Below, piece by piece: positions 5,189-63,965 of a stretch of DNA of 64,000 nt. A program made the position numbers and the translations under genes. Numbering within the stretch: position 1 is the stretch's first letter; the number at the start of each line of letters is the position of its first letter. The DNA is from Terramyces sp. JEL0728. Its lineage: Eukaryota > Chytridiomycota > Chytridiomycetes > Rhizophydiales > Terramycetaceae. The DNA is taken from the NCBI GenBank assembly GCA_027603945.1, contig JADIIU010000034.1:1-64000 (forward strand), written 5' to 3'. The notes under the pieces were generated by a model. The model did no database searches, had not been told where the DNA came from, and worked only from the letters and a program-made list of their open reading frames with translations.

Positions 5189-6112
5189 TCAACAAGTTGA
5201 AGATCCATTTAACCATCCATAGTAATCACTGTGTCTAGAAACGCTGAACTCGCCTCCATCATTCAGACAGCTGGAACTTTCCCCAGAGTTGGCGTCAACG
5301 GCACAGGCAGTAGTGGTTCCATCATCGTTGAGTTCATACTGGTGTCTGAAATGCTGGAATCCCATATAGTTGTATGGCAAATGTACAACTACTGTTAGAA
5401 ACAATGCTACCTGGATCACCAACTCTTGCTACTCTATAGAAACGATTGGCAATAGATAACCCGTCAACGTACACTGCCCAGTTGTTGTCTCCAATTCTTG
5501 GTTGGCCATAAGTATACAAAGAGATTCGACTGTCGTATCCATATACGTTTTGGAAATCAACGACTGCCATTCCAGCCAAAGCTCCTCCCAAAGAATGTCC
5601 AGTGAATACGATTTGGTAGCTTGGATATTGAGCAGCCAATTTTGCAGCGACAGGCAATACAGCTTGGCGAACACCTTCATAAGTCTTTTTAAATCCAGTG
5701 TGAACTTGCAAAGTGGTTGGGATTGGAGCATTGGCCGGACTTGCAACACTGATTGGAGCTGCGGTTTGGAAATCAGCATTCGATTTAACAGCGTCCAAAT
5801 CTTCTCCATCTGCAGTTGGATTATCAGTGCCACGGAATGCAATGACAATTGTTTGTAGATTTGCATTAACTCCAACAAATCCAGCGCCAGTAGTTGCAGA
5901 GTCATTTGCAGCAACAATGATTTGGGTTGAAGCTAAACTTCCACTGCACCTAACACCGCAATTGAATTGACCAGTCGTCCAAATTTGATTGCAATCTACA
6001 TTAGCTACAAATTACAAGCAGCTGCAGAATATTGGACATAGGTTGGAAAAGTGGAGGTTACATCAAAAGATGGGAGAGCAACAGTGGCAGCAACGAAAAG
6101 TAAAGTAAACAT
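5189..6112 (-). CDS. Secreted class 3 lipase, 294 aa
   Basis: A fungal triacylglycerol lipase-like hydrolase (alpha/beta fold) that probably acts outside the cell on acyl esters. The start at 6112 gives a hydrophobic signal peptide (MFTLLFVAATVALPS). Two introns are needed: 20 nt at 5996-6015, which restores YSAAAYCNQIWTTG, and 19 nt at 5392-5410, which restores GDPVVHL. Landmarks in order are the oxyanion-region motif IAFRGT, the nucleophile box GHSLGGALA (catalytic Ser), the YTYGQPRIGD strand, the likely catalytic Asp in RVARVGDPV and a His in the FQHFRHQYEL tail. Cysteines near the N and C termini suggest disulfides. AATAAA follows about 10 nt after the stop. Substrate specificity cannot be read from sequence. 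Confidence 0.92.
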
Positions 6113-7001
6113 TCTAGTTAAAGAGAGTCAATTCATCATTGCATTTATACTACTCTCGGCACACTTCAATACGACAAGGATGTCAGGAGTAACTATACCA
6201 AACTGTGCGCTATGAACGATGGTCTGTTATTCCACCGGATAATTCGTAATTGGTAAAACATAGCTGTCCTGATTGCGCATGTTCTAACACTACAGTGCGC
6301 GTGAATGATCAATAGTTGTCCGTTTGAATGTAGATTATAATCTATGCGGAAGTTGCTCTTGTGATGCTATCTAGCCCTAATGTGGTAATAGACATATGTG
6401 TGGAGCAAAGAGATCGATGCGAAAAACTATTGCGACATTGTAATTGGAATTGGAATTTGAGGAGCTCTTTTAAAGTAAATTTAATCGTAACATTGGTATT
6501 CTATTCTTAGAATGCCCTCCATTTTGGTGTTATTGAGTTGTACAACTGACGTTTATTCCGGCAGTACAAGACCAGCCGTACATTGACTTATTCGACCGCG
6601 CATGCATTCATCTGATCTTTATCAGACTGACCGACCATAATAAAATCGCCGCCAGTGATTGATCTTGATGTTGGCTGTAAAAGCAACACGGATAAACATT
6701 GATCTACTCAAGTGTCAAGTCTTTCATTCAATTCCATATATTTTATCCGAGTTAACCTTTTACCAAACAAAGTCGGATAATAACGACCAAGAATCGATTA
6801 CTGGAATAAAGATTCGTCCATTTTGTAAAGTGCGATTAGGTAATATTCTTGTCCGTTAATTTGGCACCTGAAGCTCCGTTACTAAAATCATACATATGTG
6901 CTGGTTCTTTCAAGTCAGTTTATATTGAGATACTTTGTCTTTATTGGCGATAGATTTCACTCACCAAAGTATTTCAAATTCCGACTCTTGATTATCCCGC
7001 A
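6113..7001. other. Intergenic between lipase and PDK1, no gene seen
   Basis: About 0.9 kb separating two divergent genes. A 66-codon open stretch at 6659-6859 has no recognisable features. The region presumably holds both promoters. Confidence 0.5.
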
Positions 7002-8397
7002 ATGGTTTATACCACGGTATCAAATAGAAATTTGACTGAAATGTCTGAATCTGAAGAACTGCGCAAACGTGTTCCCCAGGATTTCGAATTTGGAAGACTA
7101 CTTGGAGAAGGATCATATTCAACAGTATTATATTGCATAGAAAGGAACACTCCAAACGAATATGCAGTTAAAATCCTAGAGAAACAACAAATCATTCGAG
7201 AGAAAAAAGTACGCTTGATTAACGCAGGTAAAGTATGTCACCATTGAAAAGGATGTACTTCACCTCCTCAATCATCCCTTCATCATTACATTATTCTATA
7301 CTTTTCAGGATGCCATGTCTCTCTATTTTGTATTGCAGTATTGCCAAAATGGGGATCTGTTGCAGATACTCAACAAATATGGACGGCTTTCAATAGAAAA
7401 TACCATTGGGTATATGCAGGAAATTGTATCTGCAGTGGAATATATGCACACCAATAATGTAATTCATCGCGATTTGAAGCCAGAAAACATTCTACTGGCA
7501 AGTGATTTTCATATAAAAATAACAGATTTTGGGACAGCAAAGATATGGGAACCAAGAGAGGAAAAAGGGTCAACTGAGCTCAAGCGAAAAGGTACTCTTT
7601 CCTGATTTGAGGCTCTTTTGTTGGAACTGCAGAGTATTGTTCGCCAGAATTGTTAAACAACAAGGAATGCAGTTTCTCTTCGGATGTTTGGTCGCTTGGA
7701 TGTATTCTCTATCAGCTATCTGTAGGGGTTCCTCCATTTAAAGGCTCAAACGAATATCAGACTTTTCAAAGGATACTAAACTCTGAATACGAACTACCAA
7801 TAGAACTGGATGAAAAATCAAAATCGTTAATTGCAAAAATACTGGTTGCTGAGCAGGAAAGGATTGATATTAATGGAATAAAAAGAGATCCGCTGTTTTC
7901 TCTTTTGGACTGGGAGATATCAAGATTGCAGTCAAATACCATCGCATTTGAATATATAGAGCCACTCCGCAAACCTCAAGTGTTTATTGATCAATTTGAA
8001 CCGGATTTCCAGGCAGAAATAGACACGATGGACGAGCAATTCCAAGATCTTAAATACGTTGAAGGTGTTGATACAGATTCAGAAGAAGATATTATCCAAT
8101 TCATTCCAGATCAATACAACTATGAGATTATACATTTTTCGCTTGTCAAACAAGTACTCTGTGCTAATTTAGAAAAATACATTCTTCTCGCGGATCAAAG
8201 GGTTGATTTTGACAAAAGAATTGCTGGTGATGGTTGATTTAAAGACCAAGCAATGCACTGAGATGAACCGTGCAGAGATTGAAACTACTGGTGAAGAGCA
8301 TGGTTTCTCGTTTTTGCACAAAGGCAAAAAGGTTTCCATTGAGGTGATTGTTGCTAATAGCAGTGTGATGAACATGAAAAATGGCTGGAATTATTAA
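7002..8397 (+). CDS. PDK1-type (PKH) AGC master kinase, 445 aa
   Basis: A 3-phosphoinositide-dependent kinase-1 homologue, which phosphorylates the activation loops of AGC kinases. Introns at 7209-7227 (19 nt), 7592-7611 (20 nt) and 8154-8172 (19 nt) restore REKKVKYVTIEKD, KRKGSFVGTAEYCSPELL and VKQKNTFFSRIKGL. Catalytic signatures are GEGSYSTV (Gly loop), AVKIL (ATP Lys), HRDLKPEN and DFG. The activation-loop Ser in GSFVGTAEY corresponds to the autophosphorylation site of PDK1. The last 100 residues form a PH-like domain (FFSRIKGLILTKELLVMVD), which binds membrane lipid in animal PDK1. An alternative start is the Met at residue 14 (MSESEELRKRV). AATAAA begins one base after the stop codon. 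Confidence 0.95.
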
Positions 8398-8766: not shown

Positions 8767-10227
8767 ATGCGGCAGATAAGGACATGTACTGAATGCCAAA
8801 GGAAAAGTACCTTATATCTGACATAGAAATTAAATGTGATAGGAAGCAACCTTGTTTTAATTGCAGCAAGCATTCGATAAATTGCTCTTACGAACACTCT
8901 AAACGAGCGATATCAACAGGGATTATAGAGCACCCGCCAAGCCAAACCACAGACAGCTATCCTACTCCTACTACCGATAAGAGCTCGCTTTCAGTCAGAG
9001 ATTACGATTTAGAGTTTAAATTTGTACAGGAAAGTATGCTGGAAAGATACTCTTATTTTTCCTCAATGACTAAAGATTTCCTATCAAAATACCTACAGAC
9101 CGATTTTGCTGCGTATGTGCTAAGGGCAGGCTATTATATCAACAAGCGGGACGAAAAAGCTAATCTGTGGATAGAAAGCAGTATGATCGCATTCCCAACA
9201 CATCTGGAGCCAAACCTCTCGAATTTACTGACCAGTTTGCTTCTCTCTATCATGCTGTGCAGTAACCATTGCTAATGTAGAATACGGCAGGAAAATCCAA
9301 GGCGTGGGCGTGTTTGGTCACGTAGTAAGAGCTTCCAAATTGCTGGGGATAAATGATGAGCAAAAATTACAACTTTTGGTAAAAGACGAGGAAAAAGAAA
9401 ATGTGCGTAGTTTGTGGTGGCATATATATCAGATTGATCAATACCTCTGGTTCCACAATGCTGGTTTCTTGCACGAAGACGACCACAATGTCCACCTGCC
9501 GGGACTACACGGCGAATTTGACGATCGGCTGGGGGTATTGATCATGTCTTCGAAAGATTGGTTCACTCCGCCTCTGCCAAATGAAAGTATAAACGCCAAC
9601 AAGATCCTCTTGAATAGAATATTTGGTCAAGCAATCCGGCTGCAAAGGGAGGGGAACGATTTGCAAATGTCTAATCTTCAAGGGTCCCTACAATTATGGT
9701 ATATGAACCTACCTGAAAAATTTCATTTACATTTTAGGTTGATCTATGATTATAACCCACTGATTGAAAATCCAGAGCAGACATGGAAGATTCTAGACAC
9801 GCTTATTAAATTCCATTTCACGAAAATTATGATCAGCGAACCAATGTTTTACAAGAATTTTCAAACTGTTCAATTGACAGAGTGCACTTCGACTGAGCAG
9901 TCAATGCTGTATATCTGCAAACAAATGGCGGATATTTTTAGTTTCTATTTACAGCAGAATCCTCTGTTTGAATACACACCGTTGTTTACACAAATCTATT
10001 TGGTTCACATCATGGCTCCGCTTTTTTTGATCTCCAAGATCCGGATCGATTCTCAAATTGCCGTTGATCAGTGTATCTCTATATTATACAAAAGCCTCGA
10101 AGCTTTATGTAGAAGGCATGGTGATGAATTTGGAAATCTGGCCCGAATTGAAAATTGGTTCTTACTTGATGCTCGATCCGTTATGTTATCATTTAATGAA
10201 TTTAACTATCAAATGTCACATCTTTAA
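8767..10227 (+). CDS. Zn2Cys6 fungal transcription factor, array member A, 473 aa
   Basis: A nuclear DNA-binding regulator. Splicing the 20-nt intron 8807-8826 joins the two halves of a complete zinc binuclear cluster with spacing C-x2-C-x6-C-x5-C-x2-C-x6-C (residues about 7-34). A second intron, 9262-9280 (19 nt), restores IMLCKYGRK. The body is a PF04082-type middle homology region with the family motif around VRSLWWHIYQIDQ followed by HEDDHNVHLPG. It is the most diverged of the six paralogues. The start is the ATG at 8767 that precedes the cluster. AATAAA overlaps the stop (TTTAATAAA). Target genes are unknown. Confidence 0.9.
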
Positions 10228-10412
10228 TAAAATTATTCCGCTTATTAAATTTCCTGGGCATGAAAAACAGATAGCACTTGTGAAGCGATAATTTCTGGTA
10301 GCGATGGCCAATAAACTAGCTTTATCTGTCGGTGCTTTTTTATATATAGAATCTGGCTGGAATCAAATGTAGTTTCTGACTTGCATTTTTTTCCTTTCAA
10401 GCAATCCAGAGA

Positions 10413-11976
10413 ATGCCAAAAACTAGGAGAGCATGCTATGGATGCACGATAAAGGTACTCTATCCTAAACTAGAAACGAAAATGTGACAGGAAACAGCCT
10501 TGTGCGAGGTGTATAATATCGGATTTGGACTGTGAGTATCCTGGAGATCAACAACCAACATATCCGCCAAACCCCAAACTGTCGCTGTTGGCCCAAAACA
10601 TTCTATCGGCAATAAAGTTTCCTCGAATTGAAGAAATACAAAGTATATCCACCAGCGACAACCGCCAAATGTATATGGAGAAAATTGCCCTTGATAAGGA
10701 ATACGAGGCAATCCAGAATGGGATTATCCATCGGCTGAATTCTTTTACTAGGATATCAAAAGGATTCTTCCTGCGGGCATGCAGCTCGCCCCTGATGAAA
10801 TATGCCGTAATAGCTTTTCACTATACAATACAGAAAGACGAACCAAACCGAAATATATGGATTGATAAGTGTGTGTCGGAATTTACTCTGCAGCTACCTT
10901 TCCCTTCCTTTCCAAATTTAATGGGTGCCGTGATGCTATCCCTATGCTACTTTAAAAAGGGATTGTACAAAGCTGGACTGCCTTATTTCAGCTATGTCGT
11001 AAAGACGGCAAAAGAATTTGGAATAAACAGAGAGACTGGCTTGGCATCAATCACTACTGCACCGCAAGAAAAAGAAGATTGCAGGAATATTTGGTGGCTG
11101 CTACATCGTATTGATCAAATCTTGTGGTCGTTCAATAAGGGAAATATAAGCGACGAAGACAATGGAGTGTACCTGCCAGGAACAGCAGCATCTAATACTT
11201 TTGATGATCATGTTCGATCCCTAGGAATGGAAATAATGGGGCTAAATCGGTCATTCACTCCAGTTATTCCAATTCAAACAGTTGCCGCCCAAATTGTTCT
11301 GCTGGGTAGGCTATTTGGGTTGTCAGTCAAATACAGTGACCAGAGCATGACTGATCGCTCAATAGACATGCTATTTGTTTTACACAACCTGAAAGATTCC
11401 TTGTATCTCTGGCATTCAGAATTGCCGGATATATTTGTCGAGACGTTTGGGCTTTTAGATCAAAATATCCAGCCAGTTGATCTTTTTACGTGGCAGATAC
11501 TGAAAACTTACCTGCAGTACTATTTCGCAATGATTAGAATCAAAAGCGCAATTGCGTTCCCAAGTATTGGACAGTCGTATGAAGCTGTAATCAATGATAC
11601 CAACTTTACCAGTTTATTGTCTGACTGTGGGCATATCTCCCGGATCCTGGCATTCTATATCCTCAATAATCCCTTGCTTGATAAAGGAAGCTTGTTGTTT
11701 ATCAACTATGCGTACCATGCATCGGTTCCGCTGATACTTGCAAATTCGATAGCCGTGCTGCCCGTGCTAAACGAGCTGCTGGCCTCTTTGCAGATACTAA
11801 TACAAAAATACAATCTAGGAAACCCAATTTATGATATCATTAGTGGATACTTGCAAAGTGGCAATCCAGAAACCATAATAGATCAGCACAGCAAGTTCAG
11901 GCTGATTGAATATCTGTACGATAGTGATGAACAAAGTGACCAATGCGTCATGCAGTATTTGCGAGATGATGTGTAA
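10413..11976 (+). CDS. Zn2Cys6 fungal transcription factor, array member B, 514 aa
   Basis: The start ATG 10413 is followed by a 19-nt intron (10455-10473) inside the zinc cluster. Splicing gives C-x2-C-x6-C-x5-C-x2-C-x6-C with CDRKQPC in the centre. Unlike its neighbours it has no second intron at the conserved LCY position; the exon runs through LSLCYFKKGLYKAGLPYF uninterrupted. The middle region carries KEDCRNIWWLLHRIDQ and DEDNGVYLPG. A short acidic C-terminal tail (DSDEQSDQ) follows. The stop codon overlaps TAATAAA. The next paralogue starts 40 bp downstream, so its promoter is very short or overlaps this 3' end. Confidence 0.93.
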
Positions 11977-12016: not shown

Positions 12017-13488
12017 ATGCCAAAAGAATCTATTCCCAGGAACAATTCAAGCACAAGGGACGCCCCCTACTCCATACATCCGGATGCAACTCATAGAGTG
12101 CAGCCAAGAGACGGATTAGACAGCGGATCCACCTCTTCATTTGAGAGCAGCGATATTTCCAGTAGTGATTCTGAGGAGCACTATTACCAGCTAATTCCAG
12201 TGGGTCGTGCAGCATTGGACCTTGAATTTAGACAAATCCAGGATACAATTATAAACATCTTGCACTCATTAACCAGTATTTCAAAGTACTTTTTGGAAAT
12301 GGCTTGCAATGCTAAACTTATGCAATATGCTGTAAGAGCAATGTACTTTACAGTCAAAAGCGACAATAACAGTTTGCGGATATGGATGGAAAAGTGCATG
12401 CTGGAATTTGGAGCTCAAGTAGAGCATCCTTCGCTACCCAACTTGATGGGTGCTGTTATTGCATCCTTATGTTTTATTAGTAAGTCAGTATTAATGCAGA
12501 ATGTGGTGATTTTAACGCAGGTATCCCGTATTTTTCGTTTGCGATTTGTATGGCAAAAGAACTGGGGATAAATAAGGAAACAGGTTTAAGGAAACTTACT
12601 TTGAACCGGCAAGAAAGAGAAGATTGTAGGAACCTTTGGTGGTTCATACATCGTTATGATCAGTTGCTAAAGACCATAAATCGCGGTTGCATAAAAGATG
12701 AAGATAATGGAATATACTTGCCTGGCGCTGCAAATTGGAATGGCTGCCTCAGTAGTGACGATATCCGATCCCTAGGATTGGAAATAATGAAGTCAACCTG
12801 TCTGCATACCCCAACAGTCCCAAGTAAAAGTGTATATGTAAATAGGGTACTGTTGGCGAGATTGCTGGGACAGGCGACAAGGCTAAACGACCAATCCAAG
12901 AAAATCCAATCAATTGATACGCTGTTTTCGCTGGCTAGTCTGCGAGATTCGTTATATCTGTGGTACAGCAATCTGCCCCAGATATTTCCTCAAAAGTTGA
13001 ACATTACCGAGATGGATGACAGTCCGATTACTTGGTCAATCCTGGACACGTATCTTCAATACCATTTTGCAATGATTCAAGTGCTATCCCCATCAGTGTA
13101 TGCTGGCATTGAAAAGGATTACAGCAGTGCCATCCTTGATCCGTCATTTACTAATCTTCATGCTGAATGTGGAAAAGTTGCAGAATTATTCAAACTGTAT
13201 TTGAGCTGGAACCGTGATTTCAAATTCACGTTCATGTTTTCAATGAATTATGCATTCCATGCTCTAATTCCCCCAATATTGCTGTCGAAAAGTAATAACA
13301 ATGCCAAGGTCATCAATGTACTGTTAGATGCGCTTCAAGCGCTTACAGTCATCTTTGGACTTGGCCAACCCCTGCTTAACCTTGCCAAGAAGTTTATAGG
13401 GATGAAAGATCCAAAAATGATTGTGCACGAATTCAATGACTTTTCATTCCAATTGTACTTGAATGACCATTATATTATTGCTCAGTAA
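12017..13488 (+). CDS. Zn2Cys6-family paralogue lacking the zinc cluster, array member C, 483 aa
   Basis: The regulator body is intact (REDCRNLWWFIHRYDQ, KDEDNGIYLPG, then the helical C-terminal half). The intron 12480-12499 (20 nt) lies at the conserved LCFI|K position. The N terminus instead has a Ser/Asp-rich stretch (SSFESSDISSSDSEEH) and no cysteine cluster. Neither the 40-bp upstream spacer nor the first exon encodes one. It therefore probably cannot bind DNA by itself. If the paralogues dimerise through the body it could act as a partner or antagonist; that is inference. It could also be a decaying copy, but the open frame argues it is maintained. Confidence 0.88.
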
Positions 13489-13546: not shown

Positions 13547-15056
13547 ATGCCAAAGATACCGACTACATGTAAAAACTGTCATAAAAAGGCAAGTTCTTTA
13601 TTAATACAGAAACGCAAATGTGACAAGCTGCGACCATGTTCAAGGTGCATTAGTGCAGGGACAGAATGCCGGTACTTTACCGACCCAGAGGAAATTAAAC
13701 CAGACCAATTATTTGCCCCACAATTAATCTCGAGCATCAATGTTCCGCAGTCGGTTAGTAAAACTAAAAGTACTCGGGCGACAAAAGAACCGGAAGTTGA
13801 CATTGAATATGAAATAATGCAGGATGTTGTTTTGAATATGATGCATGCAATAACCAATATTTCCAAAGGGTTTTTATCAAGAACTTGCGATTCGTTATTG
13901 ATGAGGCTGTCTATCCGTGCCATGTTTTACACCATCAAAAACAACCATTCAAGCAAAGCACAGTATCTGGACCAATGCAGCTACGAATTCAATATCCAAT
14001 TGCAGCATCCAAGTATATCCAATTTGGTGGGAGGGATGTTGCTTGCGTTGTGCTATATTAGTAGCTATTTCTAATGTAGAAAGTGCAAATTTTACAACTG
14101 GAATTCCATATTTTGCTTTTGTGGTAAGCATGGCAAAAATGCTGGGCATAAATAGAGAAACCGGGCTGGGGGAATTATCGATCGACTATCAGGAAAGGGA
14201 AGATTGCAGGAATTTGTGGTGGTTCATTCATCGATTTGATCAGCTGATCGCAACAATCAACAAGGGCTGTTTGCAGGAAGAAGATAATGGAGTCTATTTG
14301 CCTGGCACAGCAAGCCATAGTAAAATTATGGATTTGGATGTTGCATCGCTTGGATTAGATATCATGGCTTCAAAAAAGCACTATACACCCGTTGTGCCAA
14401 GCGAAAATATATATGTGAATAGAGTGTTACTCGACCGTCTTTTCGGACAAGCAATGAAACTAAATCAGCAGTATCACACAGATAAATCACTCGATACGAT
14501 ATTTGCCCTGTCAAAGCTGGTTGATTCACTGGGATTATGGTATTCAAATTTACCCTTCATCTTTACCCATCAACTTGGACTCCTAGTTGGAAATGGAAAT
14601 ATTCAGCCGTTGACATGGACAATTTTCGATACTTACTTTCAATATCATTTTGCTATGATCAAAGCTCAGTGTCCAAACATATACAGTAACATTACTAAGG
14701 ACTACAATGGAACTGTAAACCATTCATCGTTCAAGAGATTATACTCTGAAAGCTTGAAAATCGCCAGTTTATTCAGGTTTTACCTCGAAATGAATCCCAC
14801 ATTTGAATACACTACACTATTCTATATTAACTATGCATTCCATAGTATCATTCCATTGGTTTTACTCTCAAAATCCGACGAAATCATTCCCGAATTAGCG
14901 ATTTTGTACTCTGCACTCGAAGCGCTCGTCAAGACCTTTTACGTGGGTAAATCCATCAAGCTATTAGTTGATCGATTCTTGCTGGATAAAGTAAATGACA
15001 TCATTCATGAATACACAAATTTTTCATTCCAAGCTTTCTTGGGTGAGCCAAACTAG
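13547..15056 (+). CDS. Zn2Cys6 fungal transcription factor, array member D, 489 aa
   Basis: The start is set at ATG 13547 (MPKIPTTCKNC), matching paralogues E and F; an upstream in-frame Met adds an unrelated leader. Intron 1 (13589-13609, 21 nt) begins GC instead of GT. Removing it gives the correct C-x2-C-x6-C-x5-C-x2-C-x6-C cluster. It is a multiple of three and has no stop, so leaving it in would insert seven residues into the cluster. Intron 2 is 14061-14079 (19 nt), joining LCYI to KSANFTTGIPYF. The body carries REDCRNLWWFIHRFDQ and QEEDNGVYLPG. Confidence 0.9.
13589..13609 (+). other. 21-nt GC-AG intron inside the zinc cluster
   Basis: It sits at the same site as the GT-AG introns of paralogues B, E and F. 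It starts GCAAG and ends TTAATACAG. It is frame-neutral and stop-free, so both spliced and retained mRNAs are translatable. Confidence 0.7.
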
Positions 15057-15392: not shown

Positions 15393-16913
15393 ATGCCAAA
15401 AATCCCAACTGCATGTGTTTCATGTTATAAAAAAGTAGACTGGAATTAACGCAGAAAAAGCGATGCGACAAACAGCGGCCCTGTGAAAGATGCACGACAG
15501 GCGGATTGGAGTGTAAATACTTTACAGATACCCCCATTGAGTTACCTCAGGACAGAAAACCAATAGGCAATAGCAGCCAAGTATTGTCCGGAAACAAGTC
15601 TATTTTCACTGATCTAACGACTGATAAATCGCCGACAAGCGATAGTAGCGATGCTGGATATCAAGCTATTCAAGATACGATACTGAATAATATGCACATC
15701 ACTTCAAGTATTTCTTTAGAGTTTTTATCGAAAACCTGTGATTCACTGCTAATGCGCTGTGCGGTTAGGGCTCTCTATTATACTCTGGGGAAAGATGATA
15801 CCAACAGAAACATATGGCTTCAAAAAGGCTGTAAAGAATTCAATGTTCAACTTTCAAACCAGACAATTTCCAACCTCGTGGGATCAGTTATACTCACCTT
15901 GGGGTTTATCCGTAATTATTAGTAATGTAGAATGCTGTGATCTAGCAAACGGAATCCCGTATTTTGCGTTTGTGGTTAGTATGGCCAAACAGTTGGGATT
16001 AAACACCGAAATAGGGCTAGCAAGGCTGACAAGGGATCGCCAGGAAAAAGAAGACTGTAGGAATTTATGGTGGATAATTCATCGATTAGATCAGCTGATT
16101 TTAACACTCAACAGAAGCAAACTTGGCGAAGAAGACAATGGAATATATTTACCCGGAACAGCTCAGCCCAGGCGAAATGGAGATGATCTTGGATCTTTGG
16201 GACTAGAAATCATGAAATCAAAGAAATCTTTTACGCCGCATATTACGAGCCAAAATATTTTTGTAAATAGAGTGCTACTGGACAGACTATTTGGCCAAGC
16301 AATTAAACTCCATGAACAATTCAAAAAAGACCAATCCATAGATACCTTGTTTGCATTGCACAGCCTTAAAGACTCGTTATTTCTCTGGTATGTAAATCTG
16401 CCGCAGAGTTTTACACGACATTTACAGTTTAGCCAGATTGACTCTTTTGACAGCCTGCAGCACTGGACGGTTTATGATATAATGTTCCAATACCATTTCG
16501 CGAGAATCAAAGTGCAATCGCCAATCGTGTATGCAAGTATAGCAGAAAACCCCAGTGCGATTTTTGACATTAGCTTCAACAGTCTCTATTACGATTGTGA
16601 AAAAATTGCAGAATTATTCCAATTTTACTTGGAAAGGAATCCAAATTTAGAGTTTGTTTCCATATTCCACCTTAATTATACCTTTCACGCACTGATCCCC
16701 CCAATCCTGCTCTCTCACGTTCAAGATAGTTCCACAATGGTTTCGAATAATCCAAATGTGCTTGCTGTGCTTTTGACTGCTGCCCAAACAATAGTTAAAC
16801 AGTACAATCTGGGTCTGCCAATCCAAGCACTGCTAGATCGGTTTCTCCAACTAAACGCGGTACAAATAATTCGGGAATATGAACAATTTTCTTTTGAAAA
16901 TTACTTGAAATAA
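15393..16913 (+). CDS. Zn2Cys6 fungal transcription factor, array member E, 493 aa
   Basis: ATG 15393 starts MPKIPTACVSC. Intron 15435-15454 (20 nt) splits the zinc cluster; spliced spacing is C-x2-C-x6-C-x5-C-x2-C-x6-C with CDKQRPC. Intron 15912-15930 (19 nt) restores LGFIQCCDLANGIPYF. The middle region has KEDCRNLWWIIHRLDQ and EEDNGIYLPG, and the C-terminal half is helical and leucine-rich. It is closest to D and F in start sequence and intron positions. The TAA stop lies inside an AATAAA. Confidence 0.92.
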
Positions 16914-52176: not shown

Positions 52177-52719
52177 ATGACAGACAAGAATGAATTCACT
52201 CCAGAATTAATAAAAGCAATCGACTCTGTGATCAAAATGCAAAAATTAAAGGAACCCCAAGACAAACTGTGCTTCATGTGGTACTCTATGCTAATCTAGG
52301 TTACTAGGGAAGAACAAGGAACCTCAACCAAAGCTGATATGCTTCCGCAAGCAAAAAAATACACTGCAAATGACCAGTTCAGTCAATCATTCGGAATTTG
52401 ATGAAATTATTGAGCATACCAGCAGAATAAAATGGGATACTGTCGATGCACCTCCACTAATCAAGACGAAATTGTTTGATGTGCTGATAAACAATGAGGA
52501 AACTACTCTGATGGATAAATTAAATGCTATTTATGCTCCGCATATATCCCTTTGGAAGCGGTATTACTTTTCTAATGTAGATATGCAGAGAGCTGGGGGA
52601 ACGGAAAGAGCATCGCTGTCATAAAGAAATATACAGGCACAATTATCAATGGATATCCAATTACTCTAGTAGAAAACATGTATACTAAATTATCGTTATG
52701 GATCAAGAAATATACTTGA
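52177..52719 (+). CDS. Unknown protein, 167 aa
   Basis: ATG 52177 begins MTDKNEFTPELIKAID. Introns 52281-52299 (19 nt) and 52561-52580 (20 nt) both have the usual GTA...TAAT...AG form. They yield one uninterrupted frame through FMWLLGKNKEPQPKL, then IKWDTVDAPPLIKTKLFDVL, then SLWKRYAESWGNGKS, ending KLSLWIKKYT. It looks like a soluble alpha/beta protein. No family is recognised. The next gene starts 280 bp downstream on the same strand. Confidence 0.65.
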
Positions 52720-52998: not shown

Positions 52999-54869
52999 AT
53001 GTTGAAAAAAATGAGTCGATTATACAACACAGGTACGACGAATTAACCCAGGCATCCTATTTAAACACCAATCTTCACTACCAAAATTACCCGTCCCTAC
53101 TCTTGACCACACTCTTGCATTGTACCTCGAGACTGTAAAACCACTCACTACCCCTGCAGAATACAAACAGACTGAAAAGAATGTACAAGAATTTAAGAAT
53201 AATATGGGGCCAGTCTTGCATCAGCGATTGATTGAAAGGGATAGCAGCACCGACAAGTCATGGCTGATTGAATGGTGGAATGATTATGCCTATATGGGAT
53301 ATAGAGACCCTGTGGTAATCAATGTCAATTACTTTTTCGCCTTTTCTGATGACAAGGTAGGGAATTATTAATGAGAAACGCATGGAACCTGCTGCAAGAG
53401 CTGCATCCATCATAGTAGGTGCTTTACAGTTCCGTGATTTAGTAGTTTCTGGCGAATTGGACCCAGAAGCCACCAAGCAAGGACCATTATGTTCTGAGCA
53501 ATACAAATATCTGTTCAATTCTACTCGTATCCCAAAAATTCCAAGTGACATCACCAGAGGATCAGACCCTACTTCCAATCACCACATTGTTGTGCTGAGA
53601 AAGAATCAATTTTACAGAGTAGATTTAGTCCAAAATGGAAAGAGATTGAATTTCGCTGAAGTAAAGAGTCAACTGGAATACATTTACAAAAGTGCTGTTG
53701 ATGAAGAAGCTTCAGTTGGTGTGTTGACCACTGAAAACAGAGATGTCTGGACAAAGGCTAGAAACGAACTGCTTGCCATTAGTGATAAGAACAAACACAG
53801 TTTTGATTCCATTGAAACTGCTGCCTTTGTCGTTTGCTTGGACGATACTAAACCAGTCACCAAGAACGAGCATTCTAGAGCTGCCTGGCATGTAATTATT
53901 GTTAATTTAGGGAGATGGAAGAAACAGATTCTTTGACAAGTCCATGCAATTTATTATTCACGACAATGGAAAGGCTGGTTTCAACGGAGAACATTCCATG
54001 ATGGAAGCTACTATTACTCACCGTGCTTGTGACTATATTCTGCAAGGGTAATTAAAAAGTAATGTAGATTAAATGATGGAAAGATTGAACTTGGGGCAAA
54101 TACTGTTTCTACCGGTTTGGCTCTTCCAAAGAAACTCAACTTTGATCTGAACCCTTCAGTCTACCGCTATATTCAGAATGCCGGTGCTCAATTCGATGCA
54201 TTAATTGATAAGCACGACTTGGAGGTTGTAACATTTGAAGGCTATGGAAAGAATTTGATCAAGAAGCTTGGTGTGTCTCCAGATGCATATGCTCAAATGG
54301 CAATTCAACTAGCCTACTACAAAATGTATGGAGTATCAAGAGCCACATATGAATCTGCTGGAACCCGCAAGTACAAATACGGAAGAACCGAAACTGGACG
54401 AAGTGTATCTTTGGAATCTGTAAAATGGGTCCAAGCAATGCAAAACCCTCATTTATCCAAAAAAGAACAAGGAATATTAGGAAGACAGGCAATCAAAGCT
54501 CAATCTGGGTATATGCAAAAAGCAGGCGATGGACACGGTGTAGACAGACACTTTTTGGGAATGCGTTTGCTTTTGAAGCAAAATGAAGAAAAACCAGCAA
54601 TCTTTACTGATCCAGTATTTGCACGATCATGCCACTGGAATTTATCCACCTCTCAAGTTACTAGCGAGCTCTATGACGGGTATGGCTGGGGAGAAGTAGT
54701 CCCAGATGGCTACGGTATTGCATATATGGTAAAGAACAACTCTTTGCAATTCAATCTTGCTAGTATGAAATTAAACAATCGCCATTTGGATACTTATTTC
54801 CATGAAGCTTTGAATGAAATACGTGCCGTCTTTGAAGCTAGCTTGCCTGAAGTCAAAGCTAAGTTGTAA
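52999..54869 (+). CDS. Carnitine O-acetyltransferase, 597 aa
   Basis: Transfers acetyl groups between CoA and carnitine for shuttling between peroxisome, cytosol and mitochondrion. Introns 53033-53051, 53357-53375, 53892-53910 (19 nt each) and 54048-54067 (20 nt) restore NTGILFKHQSSLPKLPVPTL, DDKKRMEPAARAAS, WHGDGRNRFFDKSMQF and LQGLNDGKIELG. The likely catalytic His lies in NGEHSMMEA. The substrate-binding end of the family is seen in QLAYYKMYG, RTETGRS and SQVTSELYDGYGWGEVVPDGYGI (two adjacent blocks, SQVTSELYDGYGWG and EVVPDGYGI). The basic N terminus (MLKKMSRLYNTG) suits a mitochondrial presequence, and the C-terminal AKL is a peroxisomal PTS1, as in yeast Cat2. Confidence 0.95.
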
Positions 54870-56433: not shown

Positions 56434-58210
56434 ATGGTGGGAGACAAACCAGAAATAGACACTCCAGCACCACAGCAACCGAACCCGATACCTGGAGAAA
56501 TAGAGCAAAACAGCAATATGAATATACTTAAAATTTACTTTATGCTGTTCATCTTTCGTTTCTACAACGTAATCCTACTAAAAACATGGTTTGATCCGGA
56601 TGAAACCTGGCAGTCGCTTGAAGTAGCTCACAACATTGTATTCGGGGTCGGTAAATTGACTTGGTACAGTTTACTAACAAAGGGAGTACGTATCATTAAT
56701 GTAGATGGAAATTGGGCATACGTGGAGCTACGCATCCAATGATATTTGCTCTAGTCTACAAACTAATACAATATTTGCAGTTGGAACATACAGAATTGAT
56801 CGTACTATACTTTAACCTAGATTTACGGACCAAGGATCTTACAGGCGGGATTTGCAGCCCTAACTGATTTGTACGCATTCCTGCTCTCCTTTAAAATGTT
56901 TGGAATTGAAACTGCAAGATGGACGTTAACGTGCATGATTTTCTCTTGGTTTAATTTCTATTGTCTTGTCAGGACGTATTCGAATTCGCTTGAAGCTACA
57001 CTGACTATTGTTGCGCTATATTATTGGCCAAATAGGAGGTCGAGTAGAAAGTAATTGGATATAATGTTAGGGAGTTTAGGATTGCTTTGGCAGTCGCGGC
57101 ATTCGCTTGTATTATTAGACCTACAAATGTGCTTATCTGGGTTTACATGGGTGGAGTGTTACTATCGACATTTTCACATAGGACCAGCTCAATTATATAC
57201 GATGTAACAGTCACTGGAGTGTTTGCGTTACTATTTTCATTAGGAATAGATTTCATATTCTACAAGCGATTCATATTTGTGCATTGGTACTTGTCAATAA
57301 CCAAAGGGAATTCTTGAAAATCAACGTAGTAGAAAAGGTTTCGCTGTTTTATGGTTCGCATCCATTCCATTGGTATTTCACACAAGCTATTCCACTAGTT
57401 GCATTTACTCTTCTTCCATTTTCAATCTATGGAGTGTCAAAGTTGCGGACCTTTGAAAAGAGGAATATTTTCTACATGTGTGTGTTTGTTTGTTTGGCGC
57501 TGTCGCTGCAAGCACATAAAGAGTTTAGGTTCTTGATGCCAATTCTGCCGCCAATTCTTGTATATGCCGGTAGAGGGCTTCACTACATACAGAAGTCTGA
57601 CAAGAGGCTAAGCAGAGGCGGCCCCAAATCACTGCTTGTTAGATCCCTGTTTTTCATTATATCTACTAATGTATTACTAGGATATTATTTCTCTAGATAT
57701 CATAAGAGTGGGGTTTTGCAAGTAGTGAAATACCTTCGCCATCAAGCTTATTTGGGACGAGTGAAGAGTGTACTATTTTTAATGCCGTGCCATTCCACAC
57801 CATTTTACTCCCACATCCACTTGAACATCCCAATGCGATACATCACTTGCGAACCACCAATACAGTAACCATCACTGACACTAGTCAAAATAGAACCATT
57901 TACCGAGATGAAACTGATTTATTATACCAAGACCCAGAAAAATTCATTTCAACGTACTTTGAAGGCAAAGGAACCATTAAAGTACCTTACCAAAACTATA
58001 CGATTCCTTCATATAGTTGGCCAAGCCATCTGGTATGGTACGACAATCCACATTTGAAACCTGTTCTTGAGCCAATATTGTTTTCAAAGGGATACTTTGA
58101 GGTAAGAGCAACTAACGCAGTGTGCGAGGTTCTTCAACACTCATTTTCATGATGATGACAAGCAAGCTGGTGATCTGGTTATCAGTTGCACTCAAAAATG
58201 GTTAGTGTAA
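56434..58210 (+). CDS. GPI mannosyltransferase 3 (PIG-B/Gpi10), 546 aa
   Basis: ER enzyme adding the third mannose to the GPI-anchor precursor (GT22 family). Seven introns are removed: 56664-56682, 56686-56704, 56802-56820, 57051-57070, 57287-57306, 57865-57884 and 58102-58120. The product has exactly 547 codons including the stop. The signature FDPDETWQSLEVAH carries the acidic catalytic pair after the first helix. The LTWEWKLGIRGATHP motif is built from three exons, one of them 3 nt long. Later family blocks are RILQAGFAALTDLYAF, SNSLEATLTIVALYYWP, FYGSHPFHWYFTQ, KEFRFLMPILPP and FFNTHFHDD. Many hydrophobic helices are present. The N terminus is a Pro-rich cytosolic stretch. It converges on a PIG-Y-like gene. 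Confidence 0.95.
56683..56685 (+). other. 3-nt microexon GGA
   Basis: Flanked by GTACAGTTTACTAACAAAG (56664-56682) and GTACGTATCATTAATGTAG (56686-56704). It supplies one base of the W codon and two of the E codon in the conserved TWEW motif. Skipping it creates TGA. Confidence 0.85.
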
Positions 58211-58682: not shown

Positions 58683-59915
58683 ATGAAGTCTGCTATCGCA
58701 TTGTACGACTGTGTTGGGGAAGATACATCGGAATTGTCGTTTCGGAAAGGCGACGTCATTACTAAAGGTAATTTTTAGTTTATGTAGTGGAGCCGCATAC
58801 CGAGAAGGGTAGATTTATTTAACTGTAGGATGGTGTGTAGGACAAGTAGGATCACAGCGAGGACTATTTCCTTTAAATTACGTAAAAGAGAATGATACAT
58901 TTCAGGCAGATGAATCGTTGACTCAATTTTCTGCTCCATATCAGATAAAACCAGCAGAAAAGAAAGATGTAATGCCAAACTAATTCAGAAAATTGATGTG
59001 AATCAGACTAGACAGCAGTTGCTAGGACGATCAAGCTCAATTGTGAACGAGGCAATCAAAAACAGGACTTTAGTGTTTGAAGATGCCAATCAAAATCCAT
59101 GGGCACAGCAAGCTAAACAAAGGCCAAAACCACCAGTACCCACTAGACCGCAATCGGAAGTATTTACAAAACCAAGTATCAATAGACCACAATCAGAAAT
59201 AACTACAAACCCGCTATATTCATCGCCAAAACCGCCAATTCCTCAAAGACCAAAGTCAAATGATGCCGATACTATGATTAACAAAATGGACTCGCCAAAA
59301 GTTCAGCCAAAGAGACCCGCTCCAGCACCACCCAGGAAACCAGACGTGTTTTCAATGTTGGAAGCCTCGGAAAACCAAAATATTTCTCCTAAATCACCAG
59401 AGTCGATTGACAGCGAAAGGTCAGCCACTTCAAACGATCAATTCTTGAGTGGGAAACCCGTGGTACCTCTTGGCACAAAACCAGCAATCAACCGACCCGC
59501 TATTCCACCACCGTCCACTAAACCTCTGTCAAATTCATCCAGTGAAAAACCTCCCATATTCGATAGACTGAATAACGCGGTAAATAGACCTGCACCATTA
59601 CCTCCAAGACCAGCATTAAAACTCATACACAACATACCAGAAGATGCTTATTTGCGATACCAAGAGCTTTTTAGACAGTCTGATAAATTTCAACAGGGGT
59701 ATCTTTCAGCAAATACTGCACGGAACATTTGGCTGAAAAGTCAGCTAGCACCTATAAAACTAGGCCAAATCTGGAAACTACTGGAGACTACTAATGGCGG
59801 ATTAAATGAGTTGGAGTTTTGCATAGGTATTTTTTGTTTGATAATAGGTATGTATCAAATCGATGAATTACTACGGGGCAAGGAGCTAGTCCAGAATTTT
59901 GACAATTTCCGTTAG
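58683..59915 (+). CDS. SH3 and EH domain adaptor, 390 aa
   Basis: A cytosolic adaptor, probably for endocytosis or the actin cortex. Introns 58768-58787, 58809-58828 and 58969-58988 (20 nt each) assemble the SH3 domain at residues 1-58 (AIALYDCVGEDTSELSF, KGDVITKVEPHTEKGWCVG, SQRGLFPLNYV). One exon in it is only 21 nt (58788-58808). Residues about 100-290 are Pro-rich with many PxxP sites (RPKPPVPTRPQ, PAPAPPRKP, APLPPRP). The C-terminal 90 residues form an EH-like domain (YQELFRQSDKFQQGYLSA, LGQIWKLLETTNGGLNELEF), which would bind NPF peptides. A 21-nt GT-AG sequence within the EH domain (about 59826-59846) was judged exonic. Confidence 0.88.
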
Positions 59916-60001: not shown

Positions 60002-63000
60002 ATGGAGCAGACAAAAAAAGTTGGAAAGAGCTGGTCCTTTTTGAATTTCATTAAAAAGAAAGAGAAACATCAGGATACGGAGAGTAAACCAAATCTAGAC
60101 ACGAAGCTGAAGAAGAAGCAGTTTCTATCAGCATTCGACCTGCGAGATAAATTTCGGAAGAGCAAAAAGGATATCCAAGCGCCAAATGCAGTTATTCAGA
60201 TAACACCTCCGACTCCTCAATATGGGCTGGTTCTTGACACTGATATACCAAAAGTACAAACCCCCGAACCTCAAACCGCGCCAATTGAGCTGCAATCCCC
60301 ACCTCCAGCTAAACAAACTGAGGATATCGAAATTGACACGGCTGAACAGAAAGACACAACTGAAAAAATAGATACAGCTGAAAAGAAGGATGTACCTGAG
60401 CGGAAAGAGACGGTTGAACGTAAAGATACGCAAACAGAAGAGAAACCAAGTAGACTTGGCTCGATTGGTCGCGCTCTCACAACAAACATCCCTTTTGTAT
60501 CATGGTTCAAGACATCAAACGCAATCCAGGACAATATCAATCCCATACTACATTTAGCAACCGTATCAATGAACATGTCTGAATTAAAGGATAATAAAGG
60601 TAAGGGAAATTAATCCAGAAAGCGTCTCAACTGTCCATCAATTACTGGCACCAAGCGGAAAAGGAGCTTATCCGGGATTGTGGGACGATATAGACGACAC
60701 CAGTTCAATTGAAAGTTACGATAGCAATTACGAACGTGTCGCATCATCTGAGAATCAAAGCACCGATAAGTTGAATGATGACGCGACCACACCAGTAGGA
60801 CAGCTGAAGAAGGAATATTCTGTATCATCCATAGCACTCAAACCTGAAGTTGAACTGTCCATTGAAGAAAAGTTGCAAATTGTTTTTGAATTGCCAGAGA
60901 GAGAAACATATGTGGACGAGTTTGCTTGCTGGATGATGCGGTCAGTGCCTTTGAAAGGGTACATGTATGTCACACAAAGCCATATATGCTTTTATTCTTC
61001 GCTACCATCTATGCCTGTAAGATTAATTAATACCAGGGCGAGCTATGTAAATCTGGCTACTTGCAAAAGCTGTCGCACGGAACAGTGCGTAATACATACA
61101 GTACAAAATGGTTTGTCTTGAAATCGCATGGACTATACATTTATCCGGATGCGACAAAGCTGTATAATCCAACCAGCACCATCTACTTGAAAAGCGTTGT
61201 GGAGGTGCGCCAGTCATCAACTGCAACGAACGTCATTAAACTGAAAACAACGGACAAGGAGTATCGCTTCAAAGCAGACACCGAAGTCCAGTTAAAAGAA
61301 TGGCTGGAGGCGTTTGAAACTGCCATATTCAATGCAAAGAATTCAGGAAATGATGTTAAAGTGGTATTTCCTTTTACTTCCCTTGCTAGTGTTTCAATTG
61401 CAAAAACAAGTTTTGGAAATGATTCGTTGAAGATTACAGTAGTGTGTGAAGAGTCGATCACTACTGACGATGTAACTATTTCTAATCATAGTACCTATTC
61501 TCCTACTTTAACGACGTTCAAAAGTGTTATGTCATGCTAAACTTGCTTTGGCAGCAATCCAAAGACATGCAACACACCATCAGGAAAAAAACTAGCGGAA
61601 GATTGCTCCACAGAAAAGACACGGATGGACAGCCAAAAGAGCGACCTAAATCGCAATTATCAATTTCATCCACCTCGCTTCAACGGACAACTTCAATTCC
61701 AAAAATTTCAGTATCATCAGACCCTGTTATTACAATCACACCGACAAAATCAGCCCAAGCAGCTAGCGGCGATGATAAACTAAATTATTCTCCTCCCGCT
61801 GATTCACCACTCGCCATAGTAGATTTGCCACCGCGATCGGATAAACCCCCGTCAATGAAAGTAGTTACTAATGAACATCGCAAGAGCAATTCTTTTGCTG
61901 CTCCTATGAGTGTACCAATTTTATCGCGATCGCCGCCTGAATTGAAATACGACGGAGGCTTTAAAGTGGACGAAGATAAAAGGCGAAGTTGGTGGAGCTC
62001 GCATAGAAAAACATCGTCGGATGGCGGAGAGATATACAATGAAAAGGCAATCGCAGATGACCAAAAAAATTCACAATTTGTATCGCTGTTTGCTGTTCCT
62101 GAAACGGAAAAGCTAGTGCAGAGTAACTATTGTATAACCTAGCATTCTCTGTGTATTACATATCCCTTATCCCCTATATTGGCAAATTGTACATTTCCAG
62201 CAATTACGTATGCTTCAAATCCAGATTAGTTGGTGCTCGAGCCAAAGTTGTATTACCGTTGAACGAAGTTGTTTCAGTGGAAAAATTAAAGAGATTCACT
62301 CCATTAGACTCTATAGTTTTAAAAACAAAGTCTCGGGATGAAGTAATACGTTTTTAACTAGATTTTATTTGATTTCCACACTACAGAATCCAGAAACGAG
62401 TGTTTGAAAATATTATCTGATTTGATGAAACATGCCAAGACCCAAAAAGTTGATTTAAATTCTCCTGCAGCAGACAGTTTGCTAGAAGTGCTGCCACGCA
62501 AGGACGAGCACGTCAAATCCTCTTTAAGTGACGGTATTTATGTTTAATCCCAGAGGATATAACCAATCTTCAACCTTTTGTTACCCCCAAACCACCAGTT
62601 CCTGAAAAAATGCACATTACATGTTTAACTATTGGGACCAGAGGAGATGTCCAGCCATACATTGCTTTGTGTAAAGGATTTATGGGTGATGGGCACACTT
62701 GCAGAATTGCCACGCACGATGAATACAGAGAATGGATCGAAGGATTTGGAATTGAATTTTCTTCAGTAAAAGGAGATCCGGCTGAACTAATGCAGCTTTG
62801 TGTCGATTATGGAGGCATAACCGTTGGGTTCATTCGCGAAGCCTTGAATAAATTCACTGGATGGATAGATGAATTACTGGATTCGTGTTATGATGCATGC
62901 CAAGGAACCGATTTACTGATAGAATCTCCCACGGCTTTTGGAGGATTGCATGTATCCGAGAAATTGCAAATTCCATTTTTTTCAGCATTTCCAATGCCGT

Positions 63001-63965
63001 GGACTAGGACCAGAGCCTATCCACATCCATTTGCAGTACCAGACAAACATATGGGCGGAACATACAACTACATGTCTCATGCAATGATTGAGCAAGTGCT
63101 ATGGAAAGGAATAGTGGGCCAAGTTAATACATGGAGAAAAAATAAGCTGGACCTTGTTCCGCTGCCATATGCATTAGAAAACAAGAAAATTCCATTCTTG
63201 TATTCTTTTTCGCCGTCTGTAGTTCCTCAGCCAGCTGACTGGCCAGATTGGATTCATACATGTGGATATTGGTTCTTGGATAATCCAGAGCACAATTGGA
63301 ATCCTCCAGAAAGCTTAACAGAGTTTCTTAATAGTGGACCACCTCCAGTGTATATTGGGTTTGGCTCCATTATTGTTCAAGATCCAGGTATTCAATATTA
63401 ATTCAGATGAAATGACGCAAATAGTCATTGATGCAGTGGTTAAATCTGGAGTTCGTGCAATTCTTTCTAAAGGATGGTCTGCCAGAGGACAGACTGGGCC
63501 AGCAGCAGCGATTGAGTACCCGCCATCAATATATCCGCTAGATAGAGTTCCTCACGACTGGCTTTTCCCTAAATGTGCCGGAGTTGTTCATCATGGAGGT
63601 GCAGGTAAATTATAATTCATGTCAGGCACTACGGCAGCAGGACTACGAGCAGGAAGACCAACAGTAGTAAAGCCGTTCTTTGGAGATCAATTCTTTTGGG
63701 GCGATCGAATACATGATGTAAGTTTTATTAAGATTAGCTTGGGATTGGTGCTTGCTTGCGTAAATTCACAGTAGACACGTTTGCTAGTGCTCTGACATCA
63801 ATCACCACCGACGAGACAATGAGGGAGAAGGCAGCAGAGATTGGAAACAACATCCAGAAAGAAAATGGTGTACGTGCCGCCATAGACTATGTCTATAGAG
63901 ATTTGGAATTTTCAAAGAAGAGGATACACGATTTGGCAGCTATCCACAAAATGAAGCAAAAATAG
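60002..63965 (+). CDS. ATG26: Sterol 3-beta-glucosyltransferase (Atg26/Ugt51 type), 1261 aa
   Basis: Transfers glucose from UDP-glucose to ergosterol at membranes; in some fungi it is needed for pexophagy. Nine introns are removed (60600-60618, 61017-61036, 61472-61491, 62123-62142, 62343-62361, 62534-62553, 63388-63406, 63605-63625, 63718-63737), leaving 1262 codons. Domains in order: disordered acidic N terminus, GRAM 1 (about 283-330), PH (about 333-430, [20 protein letters not shown]), GRAM 2 (about 673-773, [16 protein letters not shown]) and GT1 glycosyltransferase (about 830-1260). The GT part begins [18 protein letters not shown] and has the UDP-sugar-binding end [19 protein letters not shown]. 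The length is typical for fungal Ugt51. The TAG stop is followed by AATAAA about 20 nt later. Confidence 0.96.

Follow-up and report, generated by a model that had tools for sequence, protein, structure and literature searches.

Genomes with tiny spliceosomal introns are known from ciliates, mikrocytids and nucleomorphs, with lengths of 15-16 nucleotides (nt) in heterotrich ciliates, 16-17 nt in mikrocytids and 18-21 nt in nucleomorphs (PMC10245619). In Stentor coeruleus, whose introns measure 15-16 nt, 92.81% are 15 nt long with the branch adenosine (branch A) at position 10, and Cwc25 lacks its GGG plug, which the authors linked to the tiny lariats (PMC9505925). The named short fungal case is Cryptococcus neoformans, with introns of 63 bp on average (PMC8476143). 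Here we analyze a 64,000-nt stretch of the chytrid fungus Terramyces sp. JEL0728 (hereafter the window) together with samples from the remainder of its genome. Throughout this genome the U2-type spliceosomal introns have very probably contracted to a narrow minimum of 19-22 nt, and what we describe is a fungal variant of the known tiny-intron genomes.

Terramyces resembles Stentor in its near-single intron length, GUA donor (the top Stentor intron starts GUAAUU), AT-richness, placement of the branch A close to the 3' end (a tail of 5 nt), and conserved U2 GUAGUA and Prp8; unlike Stentor, which has no strong branch consensus, it has introns of 19-22 nt with the branch A at position 14-15 in a strong YTAAY box, its Cwc25 retains MGGG, and the host is a fungus (PMC9505925). 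Mikrocytid introns are likewise extremely short, uniform and sequence-conserved, but they go with a highly reduced spliceosome, in which 17-19 proteins were identified, and number 224 as predicted in M. mackini (PMC10245619), whereas here the tested core proteins look canonical and there are about 2 introns per kb of predicted coding sequence. The length range is nearly equal to that of chlorarachniophyte nucleomorphs (18-21 bp, cited in PMC10245619), which are relic nuclei of an endosymbiont, unlike the 15 Mb nuclear genome of a fungus. Cryptococcus introns are also U2-type and fungal, and about three times longer (PMC8476143). Ascomycete stwintrons and abutting complex introns are, as the tandem introns described below would be, removable by consecutive splicing reactions; a stwintron arises where a splice signal of one intron is split by another, and none in the Hypoxylon set is shorter than 114 nt (PMC9024468, PMC7138796), whereas here two whole introns of ~20 nt abut at AG/GT and no signal is split.

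Among the matches listed in our search of the open-access literature, no title or abstract reports a fungus with such introns, in agreement with the original prediction made from the window, whose author knew of none, and the phenomenon as described here was found nowhere among them. In one match the word "intron" is the name of a kit maker (PMC11210171).

Intron length and anatomy

In the window, the motif GTA...TAAY...AG occurs 24 times at 19 nt and 20 times at 20 nt, where 20 order-1 shuffles give 3.4 and 3.15; at the remaining lengths from 12 to 59 nt, 0-7 were observed and 1.4-4.95 expected. A gene finder that combined a coding model with a flat length prior (10-120 nt) and used no splice motif predicted 31 GT-AG introns there, 13 of them at 19-22 nt and the other 18 scattered as in decoys. 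With decoy splice ends no such spike appeared (1 of 29 for GA-AC and 0 of 30 for CT-AC).

The wider survey combined the window with 20 hand-picked stretches of 10 kb from 16 contigs (264 kb in total) and used a motif model trained iteratively on them, with complemented motifs as the decoy. It predicted 478 introns, and the decoy 320. Real lengths were 10 at 13-17 nt, 6 at 18, 78 at 19, 135 at 20, 70 at 21, 23 at 22, 10 at 23 and 146 at 24-120 nt; the decoy gave 9 at 13-17 nt, 5 at 18, then 2, 2, 2, 4 and 2 at 19, 20, 21, 22 and 23, and 294 at 24-120 nt. The 19-23 nt range thus holds 316 real versus 12 decoy introns, while 24-120 nt shows no excess (146 versus 294; 59 versus 71 at scores above 12). 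Together these results indicate a sharp floor at 19 nt and a mode at 20 nt with no longer class detectable up to 120 nt, that is, the narrow distribution near a floor that characterizes tiny-intron genomes. Introns of 18 nt were rejected (6 real versus 5 decoy). The near-universal size of 19-22 nt claimed originally is supported in this sample.

A run over 329 kb predicted 510 introns (both strands, 254 kb of predicted coding sequence), about 2 per kb; six loci were omitted from it, five of them because they overlapped others or were copies from a second haplotype, L035 for no such reason. Over 3.1 kb, contigs L041 and L042 are 99.2% identical, and L030 and L031 98.9%, which suggests a diploid assembly with both haplotypes retained in places.

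Among 301 predicted introns, the commonest donor hexamer is GTAATT (51), followed by GTACTT (21), with G at +5 not favoured (10-20% in introns of 19-21 nt), and the acceptors are TAG (187), CAG (84), AAG (29) and GAG (1). The branch box is YTAAY, complementary to U2 GUAGUA. Its branch A is assigned to position 14 in 65 of 77 introns of 19 nt, to 14 or 15 in 120 of 133 introns of 20 nt, to 15 in 49 of 69 introns of 21 nt and to 15 or 16 in 17 of 22 introns of 22 nt, mostly leaving 5-6 nt to the intron end; the spacing given in the original prediction was right to within one base. AT content is 70%; from donor to branch box T is the most frequent base at the majority of positions, and this T-rich stretch precedes the box and does not follow it. 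The final exon base is G in half of the introns. GC-AG introns are supported at two sites, 13589-13609 in the window and the SF1 gene in L038, and all others listed here have GT-AG ends. The gene finder admitted either GT donors only or both GT and GC, so that the GT(GC)-AG ends are partly built in.

Paramecium introns are reportedly shaped by selection through nonsense decay. Here, 21-nt introns that lack a stop show no depletion (a stop is present in 52 of 77, 0.68, versus 0.63 across all phases), and there is therefore no sign of Paramecium-like selection of this kind.

Introns of the window and their junctions

With lengths restricted to 18-24 nt, the motif model predicted 81 introns in the window, of which those of 19-22 nt with a score of at least 9 were kept. 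The original count of about 65 in more than 20 genes, on both strands and mostly 19 or 20 nt long, is right, with 67 predicted in 24 predicted genes (one gene being two fused paralogues): 33 of 20 nt, 21 of 19 nt, 10 of 21 nt and 3 of 22 nt, with 53 on the plus and 14 on the minus strand. If retained, 57 of the 67 would shift the frame through their length, 6 more would bring in an in-frame stop, and 4 would be silent. About 61 predicted introns are trusted, namely the 67 less one judged false, four unsafe and three in transposon-like open reading frames (ORFs), plus 8807-8826 and the second half of a tandem. They are given below with the 3-nt exon; lines without a remark rest on the gene finder, "paralogues" means gene finder plus paralogue comparison, and gap-free with a count (n/m) gives the alignments that have no gap within about 7 residues either side of the junction.

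4400..4419 (-), intron of 20 nt; gene-finder score 14.5
5389..5410 (-), intron of 22 nt, class 3 lipase gene
5996..6015 (-), intron of 20 nt, class 3 lipase gene
7209..7227 (+), intron of 19 nt, PDK1-like kinase; gap-free block with solved PDK1
7592..7611 (+), intron of 20 nt, PDK1-like kinase; removal restores GSFVGTAEYCSPELL; 5-residue alignment gap just upstream
8154..8172 (+), intron of 19 nt, kinase
8344..8363 (+), intron of 20 nt, kinase
8807..8826 (+), intron 1, 20 nt, Zn2Cys6 paralogue A (gene start 8767); removal restores CTECQRKKIKCDRKQPCFNC
9262..9280 (+), intron 2, 19 nt, Zn2Cys6 paralogue A; paralogues
10455..10473 (+), intron 1, 19 nt, Zn2Cys6 paralogue B (without intron 2); paralogues
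12480..12499 (+), intron 2, 20 nt, Zn2Cys6 paralogue C; paralogues
13589..13609 (+), intron 1, 21 nt, GC-AG, Zn2Cys6 paralogue D; paralogues
14061..14079 (+), intron 2, 19 nt, Zn2Cys6 paralogue D; paralogues
15435..15454 (+), intron 1, 20 nt, Zn2Cys6 paralogue E; paralogues
15912..15930 (+), intron 2, 19 nt, Zn2Cys6 paralogue E; paralogues
17216..17234 (+), intron 1, 19 nt, Zn2Cys6 paralogue F; paralogues
17725..17744 (+), intron 2, 20 nt, Zn2Cys6 paralogue F; paralogues
19795..19813 (+), intron of 19 nt, Sec7/BIG-type ARF-GEF gene
19931..19950 (+), intron of 20 nt, ARF-GEF, upstream half of AG/GT tandem; gap-free with Sec7 chain
19951..19970 (+), intron of 20 nt, ARF-GEF, downstream half of AG/GT tandem; gap-free with Sec7 chain
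20254..20273 (+), intron of 20 nt, ARF-GEF
20734..20753 (+), intron of 20 nt, ARF-GEF
20937..20956 (+), intron of 20 nt, ARF-GEF
21730..21749 (+), intron of 20 nt, ARF-GEF
22798..22817 (+), intron of 20 nt, ARF-GEF
23522..23541 (+), intron of 20 nt, ARF-GEF
24391..24410 (+), intron of 20 nt, ARF-GEF
25174..25192 (-), intron of 19 nt, small predicted protein
26193..26212 (+), intron of 20 nt, branched-chain keto-acid dehydrogenase E1 alpha (BCKDHA); gap-free
26640..26660 (+), intron of 21 nt, BCKDHA; gap-free; in-frame stop if retained
26770..26789 (+), intron of 20 nt, BCKDHA; gap-free
29479..29500 (+), intron of 22 nt, GYF-domain protein
30308..30326 (+), intron of 19 nt, methyltransferase
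31223..31242 (-), intron of 20 nt, AhpC/TSA-like
31479..31498 (-), intron of 20 nt, AhpC/TSA-like
33539..33558 (-), intron of 20 nt, predicted protein without Pfam match
52281..52299 (+), intron of 19 nt, predicted protein without Pfam match
52561..52580 (+), intron of 20 nt, same gene as 52281..52299
53033..53051 (+), intron of 19 nt, carnitine acetyltransferase; gene finder, beyond the extent of the alignment
53892..53910 (+), intron of 19 nt, carnitine acetyltransferase; small alignment gaps close by
54048..54067 (+), intron of 20 nt, carnitine acetyltransferase; 2-residue gap ~3 residues downstream
56664..56682 (+), intron of 19 nt, PIG-B type GPI mannosyltransferase, before the 3-nt exon; gap-free 106/114
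56683..56685 (+), 3-nt exon GGA, PIG-B type gene, required for LTWEW
56686..56704 (+), intron of 19 nt, PIG-B type gene, after the 3-nt exon; gap-free 108/114
56802..56820 (+), intron of 19 nt, PIG-B type gene; gap-free 106/115
57051..57070 (+), intron of 20 nt, PIG-B type gene, variable region; gap-free 40/119
57287..57306 (+), intron of 20 nt, PIG-B type gene; gap-free 118/120
57865..57884 (+), intron of 20 nt, PIG-B type gene, variable region; gap-free 31/116
58102..58120 (+), intron of 19 nt, PIG-B type gene; gap-free 98/103
58768..58787 (+), intron of 20 nt, SH3/EH-domain protein
58809..58828 (+), intron of 20 nt, SH3/EH-domain protein
58969..58988 (+), intron of 20 nt, SH3/EH-domain protein
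59827..59847 (+), intron of 21 nt, SH3/EH-domain protein; gene finder, in-frame read-through possible
60600..60618 (+), intron of 19 nt, sterol 3-beta-glucosyltransferase; gap-free 3/3
61017..61036 (+), intron of 20 nt, sterol 3-beta-glucosyltransferase; gap-free 3/6
61472..61491 (+), intron of 20 nt, sterol 3-beta-glucosyltransferase; gap-free 5/6
62123..62142 (+), intron of 20 nt, sterol 3-beta-glucosyltransferase; gap-free 5/5
62343..62361 (+), intron of 19 nt, sterol 3-beta-glucosyltransferase; gap-free 5/5
62534..62553 (+), intron of 20 nt, sterol 3-beta-glucosyltransferase; gap-free 4/6
63388..63406 (+), intron of 19 nt, sterol 3-beta-glucosyltransferase; gap-free 5/6; public P0121 is 10 residues short here versus relatives
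63605..63625 (+), intron of 21 nt, sterol 3-beta-glucosyltransferase; gap-free 6/6
63718..63737 (+), intron of 20 nt, sterol 3-beta-glucosyltransferase; gap-free 6/6

Homologues or paralogues were compared at the junctions of about half of the 61, the remainder resting on the model and the reading frame. In the subset of genes checked, most junctions with homologues bear out the original claim that a conserved motif is restored by each removal. Alignments with solved structures are gap-free at three BCKDHA introns, at the first of the PDK1-like kinase and at three of the sterol glucosyltransferase; the second kinase junction adjoins a small alignment gap. In the PIG-B type gene, 5 of 8 junctions are gap-free in most alignments, and the five introns of Prp8 are gap-free in 118/119, 120/120, 86/91, 120/121 and 120/120 alignments.

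Six Zn2Cys6-type paralogues stand in tandem at 8767-18754, and this array is a natural experiment on introns. Intron 1 is common to five of the six with different sequences of 19-21 nt. Intron 2, also common to five, occupies one position with different sequences of 19-20 nt, some of their 3' ends being alike. Paralogue B is without intron 2 and its protein alignment is gap-free there; paralogue C (12017-13488) is without the zinc cluster and intron 1.

Public protein models agree with much of this. The spliced sterol glucosyltransferase equals Terramyces sp. JEL0728 protein P0121 bar a 10-residue gap in the public model, with agreement at the protein level at 8 of 9 junctions. The Prp8 model P0001 of Boothiomyces sp. 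JEL0866 (like Terramyces sp. JEL0728 a member of Rhizophydiales, Terramycetaceae, with Prp8 98% identical) agrees at 4 of 5 and carries a 7-residue insert, LSFTNCR, at the fifth, the sole exception among the 119 alignments at that junction. With 12 of the 14 junctions compared in these two genes matched, the raw fact is already in the databases. Public models of the two Terramycetaceae (P0001, P0121, P0122 and P0127) variously keep an intron, miss conserved stretches or lose the frame at tiny introns or at the 3-nt exon.

Several window candidates were discarded. The prediction at 8846-8866, one of the silent four, was judged false and 8807-8826 takes its place; four introns in the doubtful gene 50500-51801 were dropped as unsafe, three in the transposon-like ORFs at 891-3292 were dropped too, and 11973-11994 and 12503-12520 went on reading. 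Those below score 9 (53357-53375 and others) were dropped, 20055-20074 vanished when tandems were permitted in the gene finder, and none of the five 24-nt predictions was accepted, that at 57158-57181 in the PIG-B type gene being gap-free in 17 of 118 alignments only. At 891-3292, two transposase remnant stretches, presumably hAT-like, share long segments, among them an intron-like one of 21 nt whose sequence at 972-992 recurs unchanged at 3142-3162. A short ORF at 302-718 has near-identical internal repeats, ankyrin-like by eye. The window, 1-64000, has no tRNA gene and no Rfam family reaching its gathering score.

Predicted abutting introns and a 3-nt exon

A gene finder permitting abutting pairs was run on the window, L009-L028, L037, L038, L040 and L041. 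It returned six composites of 40-44 nt joined at AG/GT with a zero-length exon, while pairs with 1, 2, 4 or 5 nt between numbered 0:

19931-19970 (+), Sec7-type gene, a good case; gap-free with solved Sec7 chain
51757-51798, window, a doubtful case; gene finder
L023 5813 and 6097, two composites in the U2A' gene; gap-free with solved U2A'
L037, SLC38-like gene; gene finder
L013 5234; gene finder

In three pairs each half scores at least 11 with its own donor, branch box and acceptor, so that the predicted sites carry the signal of recursive splicing, an AG/GT ratchet with full signals on both sides. The halves are unlike each other by eye, and no triple tandems were found. A frame-blind count over the 264 kb gave 3 strong-intron pairs at gap 0 and singles at nine other gaps; taken alone, this count is weak. 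The SLC38-like protein had no solved match at 1e-5, and its tandem therefore rests on what we take to be the SLC38 family motif; the L013 gene is presumably RPA1. The U2A' gene (L023 5641-6458), which encodes a part of the U2 small nuclear ribonucleoprotein, bears two of the six zero-exon tandems.

The predicted 3-nt exon GGA, between two 19-nt introns at 56664-56704, is well supported: its inclusion yields LTWEW in the protein and its omission a stop, and L[TS]WEW occurs in 101 of 120 PIG-B homologues. The public JEL0866 model loses the frame at this site.

Spliceosomal components and competing readings

The original prediction held that such introns imply an unusual or heavily constrained spliceosome and proposed inspecting U2, U6, U2AF and SF1. 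The constraint on length is real; U2 RNA, Prp8, SF1, Cwc25 and U2A' look ordinary. U2 RNA (140.2 bits) carries GUAGUA and is canonical in its branch-pairing and U6-pairing regions. Prp8, analyzed up to the end of the fetched stretch, which lacks its last part, is 76-98% identical in local alignments among the 120 matches listed. SF1 contains helix-hairpin, KH and zinc-knuckle domains, and its RRKTRW stretch, a motif that acts in U2AF binding, aligns with the end of SF1 that binds U2AF; its introns, first predicted at 63 and 47 nt, were resolved to a 21-nt GC-AG and a 20-nt intron. The U2A' gene is ordinary-looking and aligns to solved U2A'. A U2AF65-like match reached 251.7 bits, under the family cut-off of 310.3, and runs across four stops, the effect expected of unspliced introns. 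Cwc25 begins MGGGDLNLKKSWHP and keeps the MGGG plug, so the Stentor-type altered branching factor is not found here; absence of the GGG plug is a Stentor feature and need not define the tiny-intron class. The tested core components thus appear canonical, and a changed splicing machine is not shown.

Several points weigh against a genome-wide shrinkage of spliced introns. The introns are known from genomic sequence alone and their excision is predicted. The survey took in a small fraction of the genome (264 kb out of 15.0 Mb), its motif model learned from the introns that it had itself predicted, and introns longer than 120 nt or in untranslated regions lie outside it. A motif-less frame test (GT..AG joining two open frames of 40 codons) gave a weak, modest excess, with 38 at 19 nt and 39 at 20 nt next to 16-34 at the remaining non-3n lengths of 8-79 nt. 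At the protein level, the carnitine acetyltransferase junctions lie close to small alignment gaps, 2 of the 8 PIG-B junctions fall in stretches too variable to judge, and the 24-nt PIG-B prediction at 57158 is unsupported. As to the tandems, frame-blind pairs at gap 36 equal the abutting ones (3 each), the frame-blind decoy has 0 pairs but only 91 candidates versus 350 real, and two of the six composites lie in one gene, that of U2A'. Finally, U6 RNA was not found in the 15 Mb assembly by Rfam, three patterns or a DNA query, nor U1 RNA by Rfam; scoring reached only 48 of 1328 and 41 of 233 first-look candidates, which establishes neither absence, and the search or the assembly may have failed. 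Among the U6 candidates, two weak Rfam matches (27.4 and 26.9 bits, cut-off 44), on two contigs that are nearly identical, were taken for coding DNA. A 16-base pattern, allowing one mismatch, matched at three sites where the remainder of U6 is missing; each of two gapped patterns matched once, the second inside a predicted protein gene, and the DNA query gave no match.

Genomic sequence would also be compatible with segments that are eliminated from the DNA or bypassed in translation, as in ciliate-like elimination or ribosomal bypassing. We regard this as highly improbable, given GT(GC)-AG ends, the constant spacing of a branch box complementary to U2, and the existence of U2 RNA with GUAGUA and of genes for SF1, Prp8, Cwc25 and U2A'; bypassing would need none of these splice signals, which counts against it. 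That the inserts are genuine protein loops in genes spliced little or never is scarcely credible: 4 of the 67 window segments are readable in frame and the public JEL0866 Prp8 model retains one segment, but 63 shift the frame or hold a stop, 118 of 119 alignments run without a gap across the Prp8 junction, the JEL0866 model itself being the exception, and paralogue B is without the segment. The spliceosomal nature claimed from the outset is thus favoured by splice signals, frame logic, homology at junctions and paralogues.

The tandems are harder to read. We tentatively consider a built-in ruler, by which a canonical core would accept only ~20-nt units and longer sequences would persist as tandems with zero- or few-base exons, removed recursively. 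It is also conceivable, if doubtful, that each composite of 40-44 nt is one ordinary intron with a chance or unused AG/GT inside it, and that the population has a thin tail of greater lengths. The outer sites alone yield an identical messenger RNA, the six cases are few, and the homologue check covers four of them (not 51757-51798 and L013 5234); the equal frame-blind count at gap 36 points the same way. Against this stand the three pairs with complete signals in both halves, the 6 adjacent pairs in predicted genes versus 0 at 1, 2, 4 and 5 nt, and the finding that 24-120 nt introns are no more numerous than in the decoy.

The spliceosome would remove a unit of ~20 nt with a lariat loop of ~14 nt and a tail of 5-6 nt, leaving no space for a polypyrimidine tract past the branch point. 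U1 bound at the donor would come almost into contact with U2 at the branch box, so the donor is probably passed on (to U6) before or while U2 docks. The few supported longer cases read as two ~20-nt units abutting at AG/GT, and the tandem units of 40-44 nt would leave recursively, a first step re-creating a donor at the end of the exon and a second completing the removal.

A near-minimal intron population is now predicted in a fungus, in the kingdom of the best-studied spliceosomes. In Terramyces, which we take to be free-living, the comparison can part the needs of tiny introns from parasitism or ciliate biology. With the tested core components canonical, shrinkage need not mean a reduced spliceosome, and with the Cwc25 plug kept, its loss would, if splicing is confirmed, not be required at a lariat of ~14 nt. 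In practice, gene models err at tiny introns, with one retained, 10 residues missing versus relatives and the frame lost at the 3-nt exon. The zero-length and 3-nt exons offer ready substrates for testing how close two splicing events can be. If the ruler reading is true, U1-then-U2 co-occupancy and a polypyrimidine tract after the branch point would be dispensable for ordinary spliceosomes.

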